Of a stretch of DNA of 39,507 bases, positions 14,260-27,728 are shown in pieces; positions within the stretch are counted from its first letter, which is position 1; each line of letters starts with the position of its first letter. This stretch comes from Chloroherpeton thalassium (GTDB taxonomy: Bacteria; Bacteroidota; Ignavibacteria; Kapaibacteriales; UBA2268). The position numbers were made by a program, and so were the translations under genes. Where the stretch lies: the NCBI GenBank assembly GCA_020722095.1, contig DYLM01000003.1:28748-68254 (forward strand). Direction: 5' to 3'. The notes under the pieces were generated by a model that saw only the letters and a list, made by a program, of their open reading frames with translations, was not told where the DNA came from and did no database searches.

Positions 14260-16065
14260 CTAATCATCATCAATACTTAATACTGCGAGAAATGCTTCTT
14301 GTGGTATTTCTACGCTTCCTATTTGTTTCATACGTTTTTTACCTTCCTTTTGTTTCTCAAGCAATTTTCGTTTTCGTGAAATATCTCCACCATAACATTT
14401 TGCAGTTACATTTTTCCGCATTGCTTTCACAGTTGTCCGAGCGATTACTTTGCTACCAATAGCCGCTTGAATAGCTACTTCAAACATTTGCCTTGGTATT
14501 AAATCTTTTAGTCGTCCAGTTAATTTCTTGCCCCATTCGTAAGATTTTGAGCGGTGAACTATTGTGGATAATGCATCTACAGGTTCGCCATTTATCAAAA
14601 TATCTAATTTAATCAAATCGCCAGGGCGATATTCCAAAAATTCATAGTCCATCGAAGCATAACCGCGTGTGTAAGACTTCAACTTATCATAGAAATCATA
14701 AACTACTTCTGCCAAAGGCAAATCCCAAGTTAAATCTACTCTTTTTGCAGACAAATAATTTGTATTAACCAAGGAACCGCGTCTATCCATACACAGCTTC
14801 ATTATTGTGCCTATATATTCATCAGGCATTATTATTTGTGTTCTTATATATGGTTCAAGTATTTGCTTTATTTTTACTGGTTCGGGTAATTGTGCAGGAC
14901 TATCGATGTATATTTCTTCTTCATTTGTTTTTAAAATTTTGTATCGAACATTTGGAACAGTAGTTACTAAATTTTGATTAAATTCTCTTTCTAATCTTTC
15001 TTGCACAATTTCTAAATGCAATAAGCCAAGAAAACCGCATCTAAAACCAAATCCAAGTGCAGATGAAGTTTCGGGTTCGTAAAATATTGCTGAATCATTT
15101 AGTGATAATTTTCCGAGTGCCTCGCGTAGTGATTCGAAATCAGCAGAACTTGAAGGATAAAATCCACTAAACACCATTGGCTTCACTTCTTTGAAACCTT
15201 CGATTGCAAATTCACAGGGATTTTTGAAATGGGTGATGGTATCGCCAACTTTGGTATCGCTTAATGTTCTGATATTTGGTATGATATAACCCACATTTCC
15301 AGCAGAAAGCTCTTTAGTGCGGAATTTTTTCATTTTTAAAATGCCAATTTCTTCCACATCATAAGGCTGTTCGGTTGCCATAAAGTAAATTTTATCGCCT
15401 TCTTTTACCGTTCCATCCATCACTCTAATATTTACAATAACACCTCGATAATCATCAAAGATAGAATCAAAAATTAAAGCTCTTAAAGGAGCATTTGGAT
15501 CTCCTTTTGGTGGTGGAATTTTATGAACAATTGCTTCGAGAACTTCTGTAATTCCTATTCCTGCTTTTGCAGAAACTTCTAATATTTCATCTTCGGAACA
15601 TCCAATTAAGTCGATAATCTCTTGCTTAACTTTTGGGGCATTTGTTGCTGCACTCGGCAAATCAATTTTATTTAGAACAGGAATGATTTCCAAATTATGC
15701 TCAATAGCTAAATACAAATTGCTTATTGTTTGGGCTTCTATACCTTGAGTGGCATCAACAACCAAAATAGCACCTTCGCAAGCAGCTAAAGAACGAGATA
15801 CTTCATAAGTAAAATCAACATGACCTGGGGTGTCAATCAGATTCAATGTGTATGTATTTCCATCTTTGGCATTATATTGCATCTGAATGGCGTGTAATTT
15901 TATTGTGATACCACGCTCTTGCTCAAGTGGATTATCATCAAGGATTTGATTATAAATCATCTCCCGTTGAGTAATTGTTCCTGTTTGTTCCAGAAATCTA
16001 TCTGCTAAAGTTGATTTTCCGTGATCAATATGTGCTATAATGCCAAAGTTTCTATAATTTTGCAT
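14260..16065 (-). CDS. lepA: Translation elongation factor 4 (LepA)
   Basis: 601 residues, the normal length. GTPase motifs are [13 protein letters not shown] (G1), the switch I region [20 protein letters not shown] (G3) and NKID (G4). The LepA-specific C-terminal domain ends with [20 protein letters not shown]. It is a ribosome-associated GTPase that influences initiation and back-translocation. The gene is complete despite the inverted-repeat element that begins one base after its stop codon. Confidence 0.97.
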
Positions 16066-16126: not shown

Positions 16127-17788
16127 TTATTCTTCAATTTCGGCTATTCTTTCTTTAGTCTCTTGAATTCTTTTGTCTTTTTCTGATATTTTAGACTTTA
16201 AAATTTCAATTTGATTTGAAATATCTTCTTTGTTTTCGGAATTTTCATCTTGGATTTTTTCAGAATATTTCTCTAATTCAGCTTTATCCAATTCAATTGC
16301 TTCAGTTAATTTTGCTAATTTATCTTTCAGATTTTTCAAAAGAGTTTCGAATTTGCTCTTTTTTGCTTTTTTCTGATTATCGAAAAAGTCATTTCGTTTT
16401 TCGTCAAGTGATTTGAATGTTTCTTTTAATGCTTCGTATAATTTATTGCGATTATCAGTTTTTAGTTTCCAAACTTTAATTTCGCTTTGAATTGTTAATA
16501 AATTCTCGCGAATTGTTTTGAAGTGTGGATTGTCTTCTAATTTTTCTTTTTCAGCATTAATTTTAGCAATCAATTTACCAAAATTCTCTTCAGATTCCTT
16601 CAAGAATTGTTCTCTTTCGCCTTCTTGGTCGGTATTGATCTTCTCGAAAACAATACGAATTTTGCCATAAAGATCATCTCTTTGTTCTTTGGTCAATGTA
16701 ATTCCTTTAATGGAAGTTTGAGCGGCAATCAATGTTTCGCGAGCTTCTTTGAATGTATCTGCTGTTTGTGCAACATTAATTGCATTTTCAACCAATGGTA
16801 AAAGTTTAGCATAATTTTCATTTGCTTCATTCAAAAAAGTAGTCTTATCTATTTCTTGATTTTTACCTAATAATTCAAATCCATTACGAATCATTTGATA
16901 AAGTTCTTCTTGTTGATTTCTCTTCAATGTTTTAGTGGGAATCAATTTTTGAGCATTTATCAAGTCTTGGCGAGAAGCAGGAAAATCTTTGCTGTCTGGT
17001 AATGTTGCCAAAATTTTATCAAAAGCATTTTTCAATTGCAAATAGTTGTCGCTGCATTCCATTTCGTAATTTTCACGTTCGGAAATTTGTCTTTGGGTGA
17101 TTGTGTTGAAAGCATCAGCGATTAACTTTTTAATTTCCTCTATTGTATTTTTGGAAATTTTTGTGGCAATTTCATTAATTTCTTTTTGGAAAGCCATTAA
17201 TTGAGTTCTTGCTTCTCTTAAATTTTGCCATTTATTTGTTGTTTGGAGCACTCCTTCTACTTTTGCTTTATATTCATCGAAGAATTTTTGGGAGGCTTCA
17301 TTTATTTCATTTCTAATTTTTGCATTTCTTTCTTCTAATACTTTTAATTCAGTATGAATAATATTATTGATTTTTTCATTAAATTCATCTGACAAATTAA
17401 GCGAAGGAATTAATTTTAATAAATTCCTATATTGATTTATTGAAAATCTTAAACTTTCATCTGGTTCGGATTGCTCTTTAACTTTTTTTGCTTCATTTTC
17501 GATTTCAGAAAATTTTTCTTCATCATTGTAATTAGCAAAATTAGCGTAAGGGAAGAAGTATTTCCTTACTGGAGTAATAAATTCATTGCCCTTCTTAATT
17601 GGGGTGAGATCGGCATTTACCCAAACTGCAATTAAGTTGTCGCTTACATCGCCAGCATCTGGATTTATTGCGAAAATTTTGGATTCTTCCACTGGATTGT
17701 CAAATTTTTTACCAGTAAAAGCGCAAAGTCCGCCTTGTCTTTGCAATATTTCATTGATTCGTTCTTGAGAAATTTCAATGTTAGTCAT
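16127..17788 (-). CDS. HNH-like N-terminus fused to 77-residue helical repeats; unknown function
   Basis: 553 residues, no signal peptide or membrane segment. Residues about 10-75 read like a decayed HNH domain: RQGGLCAFTGKKF resembles the first zinc knuckle, and DNLIAVWVNADLTPIKKG resembles the NL...N..K end, but the catalytic histidines and most cysteines are missing. Residues about 91-476 hold five helical repeats. Three are gap-free with a 77-residue period (N248, N325, N402; R273, R350, R427), pattern FxxxRxxLxxxQ then LYxxIxxxF. The last 77 residues are a charged coiled coil. The repeats recall DUF349 proteins, but this was not confirmed. An AAGGTGA ribosome site precedes the ATG. It lies between ftsH and lepA. 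Confidence 0.8.
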   Translation of the reverse strand: MTNIEISQERINEILQRQGGLCAFTGKKFDNPVEESKIFAINPDAGDVSDNLIAVWVNADLTPIKKGNEFITPVRKYFFPYANFANYNDEEKFSEIENEAKKVKEQSEPDESLRFSINQYRNLLKLIPSLNLSDEFNEKINNIIHTELKVLEERNAKIRNEINEASQKFFDEYKAKVEGVLQTTNKWQNLREARTQLMAFQKEINEIATKISKNTIEEIKKLIADAFNTITQRQISERENYEMECSDNYLQLKNAFDKILATLPDSKDFPASRQDLINAQKLIPTKTLKRNQQEELYQMIRNGFELLGKNQEIDKTTFLNEANENYAKLLPLVENAINVAQTADTFKEARETLIAAQTSIKGITLTKEQRDDLYGKIRIVFEKINTDQEGEREQFLKESEENFGKLIAKINAEKEKLEDNPHFKTIRENLLTIQSEIKVWKLKTDNRNKLYEALKETFKSLDEKRNDFFDNQKKAKKSKFETLLKNLKDKLAKLTEAIELDKAELEKYSEKIQDENSENKEDISNQIEILKSKISEKDKRIQETKERIAEIEE

Positions 17789-17870: not shown

Positions 17871-19886
17871 TTAGTTAATATTTGTTGCATTTTCTATTGT
17901 GCTTGTTCCGTTAAATTTTATATTTTTTAATGCTTGCAATTTCATATTGCTTATTGGAGGTAATTCTTCGCCCTTAACAATCATATCCAATTCTATGCCA
18001 TCAATTGTTTCTCTTTCCAATAAGATTTTAGAGCCTTTGTGCAAAACGTCAATATTTTCTTTTAATATCCTGTCAACATCTTGGCTTGCAGACATTAAAA
18101 TTTTTCTAACCTCACTATCTATCAATTGTGCTGTTTCTTCGCTATGTTCTTTGACGTGACCATAATCGCGCCCAAGAAATACTTCGCTATTTTCTGAATT
18201 GAAACTAACTGGTCCGATTACTTCGCTCATTCCCCATTCAGTTACCATTTTACGTGCCAATTTTGTTGCTCTTTGCAAATCATTTGAAGCACCAGTAGTT
18301 AATGTATTAAACACTAATTTTTCGGCTGCGCGACCACCCAAAAGCATTTTGATTTGAGTTGTTATATATTCTTTCACATAAGAATGGCTCTCTTCGGTTG
18401 GCAAATAGGCAGTTATCCCCAATGCTCGTCCGCGAGGAATAATTGTAACTTTATGGACTGGATCTGCATTTAGTGAGTACTTGCCAACTAATGCATGTCC
18501 CATTTCGTGATATGCAGTAATTTCCTTTTCTTTGTCCGAGATTACCATACTTCTGCGTTCTACTCCCATCAATACTTTGTCTTTTGCCATCTCGAAATCA
18601 TACATAGTGATTGATTGGCTTTCTCGTCTGGCAGCTAATAGTGCGGCTTCGTTGGCAATATTTGCAATATCTGCACCCGAAAGACCAGGAGTTGATTTTG
18701 CCAGTACCTCTAAATTTACATCACTTGATAATGGTAATTTACGTGTATGAACAACAAAAATTTCCTTTCTGCCATTTACATCAGGTTTATCAACAACTAC
18801 TTGTCTATCGAATCGACCGGGACGCAACAATGCTGGATCTAATACATCTGGTCGGTTTGTTGCTGCCATTACAATTAAGCTGCTGTTTTGCTCAAATCCG
18901 TCCATTTCTACAAGTAATTGATTGAGTGTTTGCTCTCTTTCGTCGTGTCCGCCACCCATTCCGGCTCCTCTATGGCGACCAACAGCATCAATTTCGTCAA
19001 TAAAAACTATGCAAGGTGAATTTTTCTTTGCTTGCTCAAATAAATCACGAACGCGGCTTGCGCCCACTCCCACAAACATTTCTACAAAGTCTGCACCTGA
19101 AATCGAGAAAAATGGTACTCCTGCTTCGCCGGCAACTGCACGTGCAAGCAATGTTTTGCCAGTGCCCGGAGGTCCTAAAAGTAGAACACCCTTGGGAATT
19201 TTTCCACCTAATTTCTGAAATTTGAATGGATCTTTGAGAAAATCAATTATTTCATTTAATTCTTCTTTGGCTTCGTCTGCACCCGCAACATCTTGAAAAG
19301 TTATTTTGGATTCATTCTTGTCCAACATTCGAGCGCGTGATTTTCCAAAATTGAAAATGTTCTTTCCACCGCTTCCTGCACCACCATTCTGCATTCTTCG
19401 CATAAAGAAAAACCATAATCCTATCAATACAACAAAAGGCAGAATTGATAATACAGGACCCCAAAATGAACTATTATCCACTTCATAAGTCCAATAAATG
19501 CCTTGTTGCTTCCAAATTTCTTCGGTTTTATCATCAACGAAACCAAGTTTTACATTGAATTTAGTAATTTCTTGTGGCTTTCCACTTACATTTATCGTTG
19601 CTGATTCTTTTAATTTTCCATAAAAATCAATATCACCGTACTGATTTTTGATAATTTTCGCACTTTTAATCATATTCTGATTTAAAAATGCTTGGTATTC
19701 TGTGTAGGAAATTGTTACATCTTTGGTTTGACTTTGCTGAAAAACTGCATACATTACAAATACAAAAGAGCCAAATAACAACCATATTAACATATTTTTC
19801 ATTAAGTTAGGTTGATTATTTGAATTAAAGTTCTTCTTGAAATCAAAATTATCTTTATCTGATTTATTTTTTGGGTTTTCGCCCAT
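17871..19886 (-). CDS. ftsH: ATP-dependent zinc metalloprotease FtsH
   Basis: About 671 residues. Two membrane helices ([17 protein letters not shown] and [17 protein letters not shown]) flank a periplasmic domain. The AAA module follows with Walker [19 protein letters not shown], Walker [17 protein letters not shown] and the second region of homology ending RPGRFDRQV. The protease has the zinc motif HEMGH. It degrades membrane and short-lived cytosolic proteins as a hexamer. The track starts at TTG (19889); the next codon is ATG (19886), preceded at good spacing by GGAG, and was chosen. It is the third gene of a tilS-hpt-ftsH cluster. Confidence 0.97.
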
Positions 19887-19998
19887 CAATATTCTCCAAT
19901 TTTGCTATTTTTACTTAATTAACATAAGACGCTTAAAAAGCAAATTAATTTTTGCAGTTTTGAGCGAATATCGTAATATTTATATCTTGTGTGAAATT

Positions 19999-23543: not shown

Positions 23544-26500
23544 TTATTTATATATAATAAATTTTTGAATTTCATTATTGAACCGAACAAAATATATTCC
23601 ATTTGCCAATCTATCAGAATTTAAATTGTAGGTTTTAGTTTGTTTGTTTATATCAAAATTTGCAACATTCACTCCAATTGAGTTGTAAATACTTATCTTG
23701 TCGGATTGTGAAATATTATCAAATTCAAAATTAATTTCATTATCCAAAACATTAATTTGCATTGTTGGTTCGGGATAAATAATTAATTTATGCGACACTT
23801 CAGGGACACAAATTGGCAACAAACTTAGAAGCCCATTTTCTTTCTGAATCTGATGTTCTTTAGTTGTTGAAATATCAAAATTTGAAATAATTAAGTCGGT
23901 ATAAGTCGGATTAGATGCCAATACCTTGCCCTTAATTGCAAATAAAATTGTATCGCGATTAAGCATTTCTTCTGCATCATCTTCCAAAAGATTTAGATTT
24001 ATTTGTCCTCTGTTGTAACTAAAATTATAAGAACTATTATTGGTTTTAGAATTATAAAATACATTCAGCGGATAAAATAAATATTCATCAAATTTTATTT
24101 CAATATCGAGACTTTTTGGGTGAAGTTTATTCAAAATAGGTGAATACTTAACTAAAACATCAATCGTTTCGCCAACTTCGGCTGTATAATTATCAATCCA
24201 TACTTTTGCAGTGTAAAACTCTTTTGGTGTTTGGGCAGATAGTGTAATTTCTAAAGTATCATAGCAAGATGAGTATTCTTCTATAATTATTGAATCGTAA
24301 AATGTTCCGTCAATAAATGAAAGATATTCAAACTCTACTTGTTTGGATTCTCCCGGAGCCAATGAAATCGGAAATTCTGTAAGTAATCTAAATTCATTTG
24401 TTGAAAGTGGCTTTATCAAGTTGATAGTTCGTATTATGGTAGAATTATTTGTAATTGTAATTTGTTGTAGAGCACTTTCTTCAGCCTCAATAATTCCAAA
24501 ATCAATATTTCTATTAGTATAAGTCAATTTTGGTTCAATAATTTCATATTTTAGAATGATAACAAAATTTTGCGGGCAATTCAATGAAGTTAAATTTAAT
24601 GTATCATAAAATATTCCAGTACTATTTGATTTACTTGGATGGAAATTTATAATTAAATCTTCAGAATAATTAGGTTCAATGTCAAACTTTAACGAAGGAA
24701 TAATTTCATAATATTCGGGAATATTATTTGGAGTGATCTCAACAATATTCTCGAGCAATCCAGTATTTGTAATTTTTATGGATTTACTGCTAAATATGTC
24801 GCATATTTCAAAAATACCGAAATCAATAAAATTTGTGTCAATCGAAATTATTGACTTTTTAAAATCCATACTTATTGGCATTGTAAGTAATTGACCTTCA
24901 GGCTCGAGTGTAGAAATGTTGAGTAGTGTGCTAAAATTACCTTCAATTTGCGAGTTGAATTTAATGATAATTTTCAGCGAATCGTTTTGAGGCAAAGAGT
25001 AGGGAAGAGCAACTAAATCAACAAGTGAAAATTCTTTATCACCATCAAGAGAAATATTTGTGATTGTGTCGGCTATTGTTCCTTTATTGACAATCACAAT
25101 AGTGTCGAGTGCATTTCCATCACAAGTAATTTGCGAGAAAGATGAATTGTTGCCAAAAACAACAAAACGAGAAATACTTGAAATTTCAATTGGAATACAT
25201 TTTTCAACAAAACATTCTTCATTTGCAGTAAAACAAAGTTCGCCTTTATAAGAAGTATTATTATTTGATTTTATTTCCATTTTAAAGTTAAAATTCTCGC
25301 CATTTGCAATCGCTAATGGGAAATTTTGGTCAAATGTTATTTCTAAATCTATTGTAGGTGGTTTTAATGTATATTTTACTATTGATAAATCAGTATTACC
25401 CGTATTAGCAATATTTGCATCTATCACTTTGGATTCATTCTTTTTGATAATTTCATTGATAAGAGTAGGATTAATTTCAAAATCTGAAAATACTACTTCG
25501 CCTCTAAATACAATTTCTAACTCCTTGCAATCTCCTGTTTTAAGCTTTAACGTATCTTCAAATTTGCCTACTTGGTATCCATTAAAAATACATTTGACAT
25601 TAATACTTTCTTCGGGATTTATTTGCGGTTCCCAAGGCAATAATATTTCAAATGGACTATTTAATTCTTTGATTGTTTCTAATTGTGCAAAAATATTACC
25701 TTTATTCTCAAAAACAACTATCGTGTCTTTATTACCTTTTAGGCACACTCTACCAAAATCAATAATTGATTGTACTTTAACATTTTCTGTCATCATCTTT
25801 GTAACAAGTAGAATGTCAAAAATTTCTTTATTACCACGAGATAATGTTTTATCATTATTATATAATTGTAAAATATACGCTTGAGATTTTTCATTAATCA
25901 CATCTATCTCAATTATTATTGAATCAGATTGTTTTGGTGCAATTCTAATTGGCAAAGAATTGCCGCTGCTCCAACCAATAATTTTCACTTCAAGCGGATT
26001 ATCTGCAATTAAATTTTTTGTAATTAATAAATCTGAATTTCCCGTATTCCAAACTGGAATTGTTCTTCGAACTTTACCAGCACAAGTGCTAACAAAATGC
26101 AAACTATCAACCGAATTAATAATAGGGGAATAACCATAAGCACGCACTTTAACAAGAGTATCGATTGAGCAAGGCAGTAATTTGAATTTAAAAACTTGCT
26201 CCGACCAACCTGTGTCAATTAATTTTATAGAAAAGCCAGTATTTGTCCCAGTAGGATTAACAGTTAATGGCAAATCCGATACAAAATTAATCTGATCCTT
26301 ATCATTGTTTAATTCGGCTACTGATTTAATCTGCTCTAAAATCTCATCGCTAAACCATTTTAAATTTGCAAATTTTTCGTACCCACAAGCAACGCTATCT
26401 ACAAATATAATATCTGTTTCGGGTCGGATAGTTGTTTTGTTCCCTTTGCCTGATAATGAAATTTCTTTGTAAAATGTTGTTTCGCCGTCATCAGAAACTG

Positions 26501-27728
26501 CTGTCACAACTAAACTTGCGGTGTAATCTTTTTTCGCTTTTGGTAAAAATCTTATGGCAATTCCGACAGAATCACAACTATTTATTGAAGAGTTAAAAGA
26601 AGGATAAACAATTTCAAAAGCATTATCAACATTATTTGTTAATTGCACTTGAAGGCTTGCATTATAAAATGATTTGTTGGTTATTTTGATTGAATCTAAT
26701 CTTGTCCCGGGATAACATAATTCTGCAAAGTTTAACTGGTCTTTATTATTTGATATTTTTGTTTTGCTTAGTTTATATATGCCCTCGCCACACACCCAGC
26801 CTTCATCTGCCGAAAGGAATGTAATGTCGTCTAAATCACCATTATTAATTCCACAATTCATTAGTTTCCAATCATTTCCAGCGTTAGATGTGTAATAAAT
26901 TGATCTGCCATATCCACAAGCCCATGCAGTATTTGCATCAACTAAGCACGCACCAAACATAGAAAAACCTGTGCTTAAGGTTTTCCAATTGTTGCCAAAA
27001 TCTGTCGAAAACATTGCTCCGCCAGCATTCCCCTGACCGCTACAAGTTACTCCCGCATAAGGCAATACAATAGAATTTCCCATAATTGAAATTTCTTCTT
27101 GCCAGACTGTTGCCCCCGTTCCTTTAAAAATAAACCAATCCGAGCCTGTATTGGTAGTTTTCCAGATTTGCCCGCTACTAACAGCAAAGCCAGTACCGTC
27201 CGAGTAAAGTATTAAGTCGGTAAGCCCAGTACTTGGCTGATTGTATGTTTTCAATGTCCAATTTGCGCCGCCATTTGTTGTTTTGTAAAATCTTTGCAAA
27301 TCATCACAACCACCGCCAACAACAACGCCCGTATTTGCATCTAAAAAATAACAACCCCAAAAGCCACGAATAGCACTATCCAAAGGAGTTATTTCGGTGA
27401 AATTTGCACCGCCATCGGTTGTTTTCCATATTCCTTCCACACCAGAAACAAAGCCAACACTTTGATTTACAAAAAAAATTGATTCCAAATGATAAGCGGG
27501 CTGGGGAACTACACTTCCACTCCAAGTTTGACCATAATCGGTTGAGCGAATTACATATCCATCAAAACCACAAGCCCAAACATAATTTGTATTGCTCGGC
27601 AAAAAGAAAATATCCAAGTAATATCCCGAATTGAAGGGCATTGGAATATTAGTTTTCTTCTCCCAATATTGAGCATAATTGGGTAAAGAAAGGATTACGA
27701 GTAGAAATATGTATATTAACTTTTTCAT
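23544..27728 (-). CDS. Large secreted surface protein: YCF48-type propeller, Ig-like repeats, cohesin-like domain, T9SS sorting tail
   Basis: 1394 residues. A signal peptide (MKKLIYIFLLVILSLPNYAQ) is followed at about 25-340 by seven propeller-type units such as IWKTTDGGANFTEI and FYKTTNGGANWTLK, the BNR/YCF48 pattern. Residues about 340-1170 are repeated beta-rich domains of the choice-of-anchor/HYDIN-like type (for example FGRVCLKGNKDTIVV and FGIIEAEESALQQITI). About 1175-1310 resembles a cohesin domain (KVWIDNYTAEVGETIDV). The last about 70 residues (SIYNSIGVNVANFDI, LANGIYFVRFNNEIQKFIIYK) form a type A T9SS sorting domain. It is probably exported by T9SS and anchored or released at the surface. 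No enzyme motif was seen. Confidence 0.85.
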   Translation of the reverse strand: MKKLIYIFLLVILSLPNYAQYWEKKTNIPMPFNSGYYLDIFFLPSNTNYVWACGFDGYVIRSTDYGQTWSGSVVPQPAYHLESIFFVNQSVGFVSGVEGIWKTTDGGANFTEITPLDSAIRGFWGCYFLDANTGVVVGGGCDDLQRFYKTTNGGANWTLKTYNQPSTGLTDLILYSDGTGFAVSSGQIWKTTNTGSDWFIFKGTGATVWQEEISIMGNSIVLPYAGVTCSGQGNAGGAMFSTDFGNNWKTLSTGFSMFGACLVDANTAWACGYGRSIYYTSNAGNDWKLMNCGINNGDLDDITFLSADEGWVCGEGIYKLSKTKISNNKDQLNFAELCYPGTRLDSIKITNKSFYNASLQVQLTNNVDNAFEIVYPSFNSSINSCDSVGIAIRFLPKAKKDYTASLVVTAVSDDGETTFYKEISLSGKGNKTTIRPETDIIFVDSVACGYEKFANLKWFSDEILEQIKSVAELNNDKDQINFVSDLPLTVNPTGTNTGFSIKLIDTGWSEQVFKFKLLPCSIDTLVKVRAYGYSPIINSVDSLHFVSTCAGKVRRTIPVWNTGNSDLLITKNLIADNPLEVKIIGWSSGNSLPIRIAPKQSDSIIIEIDVINEKSQAYILQLYNNDKTLSRGNKEIFDILLVTKMMTENVKVQSIIDFGRVCLKGNKDTIVVFENKGNIFAQLETIKELNSPFEILLPWEPQINPEESINVKCIFNGYQVGKFEDTLKLKTGDCKELEIVFRGEVVFSDFEINPTLINEIIKKNESKVIDANIANTGNTDLSIVKYTLKPPTIDLEITFDQNFPLAIANGENFNFKMEIKSNNNTSYKGELCFTANEECFVEKCIPIEISSISRFVVFGNNSSFSQITCDGNALDTIVIVNKGTIADTITNISLDGDKEFSLVDLVALPYSLPQNDSLKIIIKFNSQIEGNFSTLLNISTLEPEGQLLTMPISMDFKKSIISIDTNFIDFGIFEICDIFSSKSIKITNTGLLENIVEITPNNIPEYYEIIPSLKFDIEPNYSEDLIINFHPSKSNSTGIFYDTLNLTSLNCPQNFVIILKYEIIEPKLTYTNRNIDFGIIEAEESALQQITITNNSTIIRTINLIKPLSTNEFRLLTEFPISLAPGESKQVEFEYLSFIDGTFYDSIIIEEYSSCYDTLEITLSAQTPKEFYTAKVWIDNYTAEVGETIDVLVKYSPILNKLHPKSLDIEIKFDEYLFYPLNVFYNSKTNNSSYNFSYNRGQINLNLLEDDAEEMLNRDTILFAIKGKVLASNPTYTDLIISNFDISTTKEHQIQKENGLLSLLPICVPEVSHKLIIYPEPTMQINVLDNEINFEFDNISQSDKISIYNSIGVNVANFDINKQTKTYNLNSDRLANGIYFVRFNNEIQKFIIYK

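Follow-up and report, generated by a model that had tools for sequence, protein, structure and literature searches.

The only characterised DUF349 protein that we found is MSMEG_2731 of mycobacteria, which carries three DUF349 repeats, binds RNA, single-stranded DNA and double-stranded DNA at micromolar affinity, and binds ribosomal protein S1 at 1:1; ATPase activity was not detected (PMC3348880). A second point of reference is the HNH nuclease fold, found in a group II intron maturase (6me0), McrA (6ghc), Cas9 and CBASS Cap5, the last of which joins HNH to a SAVED domain. The 553-residue protein described here resembles both. Like MSMEG_2731/Rv2731, it has tandem DUF349-type repeats, a variable N-terminal part and a C-terminal domain, whereas the mycobacterial proteins have three repeats and no HNH head, and the nucleic-acid and S1 binding measured for MSMEG_2731 would extend to it by inference. 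It has a fold in common with the HNH nucleases but has lost their catalytic histidine motif and is fused to a helical rod.

The window analysed is a stretch of 39,507 nucleotides (contig DYLM01000003.1). A preliminary description of it had placed the gene correctly; the open reading frame lies on the minus strand, starting with an ATG at 17788 just after a Shine-Dalgarno-like AAAGGTGA, and is single copy in the 2.46-Mb draft genome. The gene, its parts and its neighbours are as follows.

16127..17788, minus strand: whole gene, 553 amino acids plus stop (open reading frame; family of 21 aligned members)
17504..17788, minus strand: HNH-derived head, residues 1-95 (HNH profile matches, structure match, head alignment)
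17309..17503, minus strand: loose first helical unit, residues 96-160, with short helix 114-130 (AlphaFold2 model; aligns to DUF349 units)
17075..17308, minus strand: second unit, residues 161-238 (AlphaFold2 model and R-to-R spacings, 79 here, 77 in most orthologues)
16844..17074, minus strand: exact 77-residue repeat 1, residues 239-315 (lag analysis and R-to-R spacings)
16613..16843, minus strand: exact 77-residue repeat 2, residues 316-392 (lag analysis and R-to-R spacings)
16382..16612, minus strand: exact 77-residue repeat 3, residues 393-469 (lag analysis and R-to-R spacings)
16130..16381, minus strand: C-terminal coiled-coil tail, residues 470-553 (model helices 444-513 and 520-552)
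17871..19889, minus strand: ftsH, conserved upstream neighbour, 82 bases from the gene
14260..16065, minus strand: lepA, downstream neighbour in some genomes of the window's genus and not beyond (neighbour comparison)

Searched alone against Pfam and NCBIfam, the protein had no meaningful match. Its sequence retrieved only coiled-coil noise from the PDB (for example, fibrinogen), the whole model had no Foldseek match at E<=0.001 in PDB or BFVD (low TM, long-helix noise), and NCBIfam SMC matches of the relatives L009 and L020 fell far under the cut-offs and were taken as coiled-coil noise.

Within residues 150-480 of the single sequence, self-similarity was greatest at a lag of 77, which scored 0.59 against a background mean of -0.67 (s.d. 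0.20, lags 20-159); lag 77 also ranked first in the family profile, with lag 154 second in both. R-to-R spacings were 77/77/77 in most orthologues (30-35% identity) and 77/78/77 in four members from two small clades. In the window's genus they were 79/77/77 (82 in L005), which marks the looser spacing of the second copy as a local insertion. For 77 residues as the evolutionary unit, L020 gives direct evidence: it holds exactly one additional unit (154 = 2x77). The residues by which the preliminary description had recognised the repeat (N248/N325/N402, R273/R350/R427 and Y249/Y326/F403/F480) are all present, the 77-residue period that it claimed holds in the single sequence, the family profile and most orthologues, and a plain heptad coiled coil without this period is excluded.

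An AlphaFold2 model (21 family members as input; mean pLDDT 86.7, pTM 0.41) resolves each unit into a short helix (14-20 residues) and, after it, a long one of ~50 residues. The short helices begin at 114, 187, 269, 346 and 423 and alternate with the long ones, and we therefore count two looser and three exact copies followed by a coiled coil, in agreement with the earlier reading of the sequence. Because the pTM is low, the model does not define how the rod is shaped overall. Two relatives, L011 (1489-3414) and L013 (1377-3128), carry an extra Glu/Pro/Ala-rich low-complexity tail beyond the coiled coil, reaching about 70 residues in L011.

We infer that the protein serves as a scaffold in the cytosol and is not an enzyme. 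Its five DUF349-type units, each a short and a long helix spanning 77 residues, would make up, with the C-terminal coiled coil, a long rod of helices only; the HNH-derived domain at the N-terminus would be a retained, catalytically dead module exapted for binding; and the gene is probably co-transcribed with ftsH in the host lineage. By analogy with MSMEG_2731, the likeliest ligands of the rod are nucleic acid, a translation component such as the ribosome, or both. The repeat, its homology to DUF349, the HNH fold, the lost catalytic residues, the linkage to ftsH and the purifying selection are computed results, and we are highly confident of the architecture, a DUF349-type rod with an HNH-derived head. 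The full statement, a non-catalytic DUF349-type scaffold with a dead HNH binding head, nucleic-acid or ribosome association and co-transcription with ftsH, is put forward tentatively: its function is transferred from a single, distantly related protein of a different phylum, and with a pI of 5.3 the protein does not look like an obvious binder of nucleic acid, although acidity is shared by most canonical Bacteroidia DUF349 proteins.

The gene family is restricted to one taxonomic family. A single-sequence search found it in 24 of 60 relatives and a profile search in 29 of 119 genomes from the order, all within that family; the remaining families of the order and of the class gave no match to the profile, and no relative was encoded in viral contigs. 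The closest relatives that carry a name are genomes assembled from metagenomes, and several of them were deposited under Candidatus Kapabacteria/Kapaibacterium or Ignavibacteria. Five genera of the taxonomic family (g5, g6, g9, g19 and g21) lacked the gene in the sampled genomes, which also held no DUF349 match over the cut-off, so the gene is dispensable in the group. Not all members have the head: on the tree, the distribution of headed and headless proteins needs three changes, at least two of them forced by supported branches, and L006, which is related to the window's genus but headless, represents a change of its own, apart from those of the other headless clades. Two deposited names bear on these records. 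The gene of L046 (JAGXRP010000077.1), a MAG deposited as Desulfobulbaceae, has ftsH as neighbour and falls inside a clade of the window's family, on a very short branch to G233, and the MAG is probably a misassigned or mixed bin. L031 (DYPF01000005.1) has a gene 89% identical and about 16 kb of gene order in common with the window; its deposited name, Chloroherpeton thalassium, looks wrong.

At 22 of 32 testable loci, from about ten genera, ftsH lies immediately upstream on the same strand, and the 13 complete headless members all show this linkage. Between the two genes lie 6-95 bases in most loci and 194-697 in four; the 82 bases in the window contain no terminator-like site, such scans being weak evidence. 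The lepA gene, by comparison, is adjacent only within the window's genus, in three of its five genomes, and a general lepA linkage was rejected. Of the lepA-ftsH position proposed for comparison among orthologues, the ftsH side is thus conserved and the lepA side is not, and the suggestion that the placement may be incidental is not supported in that form. This context raises the chief rival to a nucleic-acid- or ribosome-associated scaffold, namely a dedicated FtsH partner made from the same transcript (an adaptor, a substrate-delivery factor or a regulated substrate), whose rod would hold clients or the protease in place. The breadth of the linkage, its persistence in every complete headless member, and the unrelated genes that follow ftsH where the family gene is absent or elsewhere all speak for such a partner. 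However, ten headed members sit elsewhere in the genome, with no common neighbour beyond close relatives, canonical DUF349 genes showed no adjacent ftsH in the 1.5 kb inspected, and neighbours in bacterial operons are often mechanistically unrelated, so we consider a dedicated partner unlikely. Somewhat less likely again is a lineage-specific FtsH accessory, in which a DUF349-type rod, made together with the protease and with a captured dead HNH head for docking or RNA sensing, would connect nucleic acid or ribosomes with membrane proteolysis. Genomes of g9, which lack the gene, have a different, conserved pair behind ftsH: what looks by eye like a HAD-like phosphatase, and a membrane protein. 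Elsewhere in the window, 23544-27728 on the minus strand encodes what by eye is a 1394-residue secreted protein with repeated beta domains and a type IX secretion-like C-terminal end.

The scaffold reading depends on the kinship of the rod to DUF349 (PF03993), known from Bacteroidia and Actinobacteria. The window protein itself has no DUF349 match at E<=10 and does not reach the curated Pfam cut-off; six of the 21 members match (best 8.3e-5), and L017/G021 is the only orthologue to reach the cut-off, with 23.3 bits against 23.9 in the member search and 26.2 in the genome search. When 54 genomes from the host's taxonomic family were searched in six frames, 11 DUF349 matches resulted, one of them over the cut-off; ten belong to the family of the 553-residue protein, of which G358 was assigned by open reading frame length only. 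When the family profile was compared by hhalign with 30 Bacteroidia DUF349 proteins, the two aligned in register over about 300 residues with a score of 107 (E 1e-12), and the repeat region alone scored 70; reversed, column-shuffled and seven-residue-block-shuffled controls scored 13-23. The match was also obtained with another alignment, in which the C-terminal tail aligned to the DUF349 tail; taken alone, the tail matched weakly. N248 falls close to the conserved unit-start N of DUF349, whose canonical copies are 76-77 residues apart. The DUF349 check recommended in the preliminary description was thus positive, at profile level only, and the repeat is accordingly of a known kind. A PDB sequence search with the DUF349 profile found no convincing solved relative.

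Identity to DUF349 is only about 13%, which, like the shortfall from the Pfam cut-off, counts against the scaffold reading as a whole. In the consensus, the W-K-x-I-G-P-V-P-R motif of canonical DUF349 is missing, with I-K-x-x-x-L-K-R in its place. The absent motif and the lack of a clear Pfam pass (L017 straddling the cut-off) would suit convergence, the 77-residue repeat having arisen independently of DUF349, but a shared 76-77-residue unit with N near its start, an alignment in register over such a length, and a score that exceeds composition- and heptad-matched controls 3-5-fold make convergence improbable. Taken together, the in-register profile match, the shortfall from the cut-off and the lost motif argue, at the level of sequence profiles, that the repeats are divergent DUF349-type repeats and not DUF349 members by Pfam's own cut-off. 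The window protein shares tandem helical units, the unit-start N and a helical tail with canonical DUF349 proteins; it differs from them, besides the motif and cut-off, in its gene's position beside ftsH and in its HNH-derived head, which was not found in the 30 canonical proteins.

A profile of 18 heads matched the HNH domain of the group II intron maturase (3.6e-6) and McrA (0.0024), a profile of the seven heads with four cysteines gave the same matches plus IscB/Cas9-type HNH proteins, and the L010 head exceeds the Pfam HNH cut-off (22.3 vs 21.4 bits). For the modelled window head (pLDDT 82), CBASS Cap5 and Cas9 HNH domains filled nearly the whole Foldseek top 50, with probabilities up to 1.00 and modest E-values of 0.01-0.2. 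At the position of the catalytic D-H-x-x-P motif, the window protein reads F-A-I-N-P; judged by eye, the motif is absent in every aligned head, and L010 and L020 have a histidine nearby but out of register. Profile, structure and head alignment thus bear out the earlier impression of an HNH-like N-terminus without catalytic histidines, and residues 1-90 do find HNH-fold matches. The two CxxC pairs typical of HNH nucleases are kept in seven relatives (L009, L010, L012, L016, L020, L024 and L045), whereas the window's lineage has lost them and keeps one of the four zinc cysteines, C22. Following the HNH fold, the heads share a conserved motif, KY-x-FPYANF-x-x-Y, which may connect them to the rod. 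Judged by these residues, the head is apparently no longer able to cut. Against the nearest relative, dN/dS is 0.06-0.11 in all segments of the gene, which is under purifying selection; because the value for the head (0.08) is like that of the remaining protein, the head is maintained and not drifting.

That the protein still cuts as an HNH nuclease or acts as a defence effector, its rod serving as sensor or oligomerisation arm, is very improbable: the best structure matches of the head are Cap5 HNH domains and L010 has a weak PADLOC match to a type IV restriction enzyme, but the catalytic motif and zinc cysteines are lost, many orthologues lack the head, the window protein has no SAVED match at E<=10 or other effector domain, and the neighbours are housekeeping genes. 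PADLOC matches were weak or coiled-coil, and a defence role was rejected.

DUF349 is widespread and almost uncharacterised. The clade-restricted subfamily described here extends it beyond its Pfam model and joins it to an exapted nuclease fold, offering a clean case of a nuclease domain that lost first the catalytic residues, then the zinc site, yet stayed under selection. Its conserved ftsH context provides a lead on the function of this DUF349-type subfamily.
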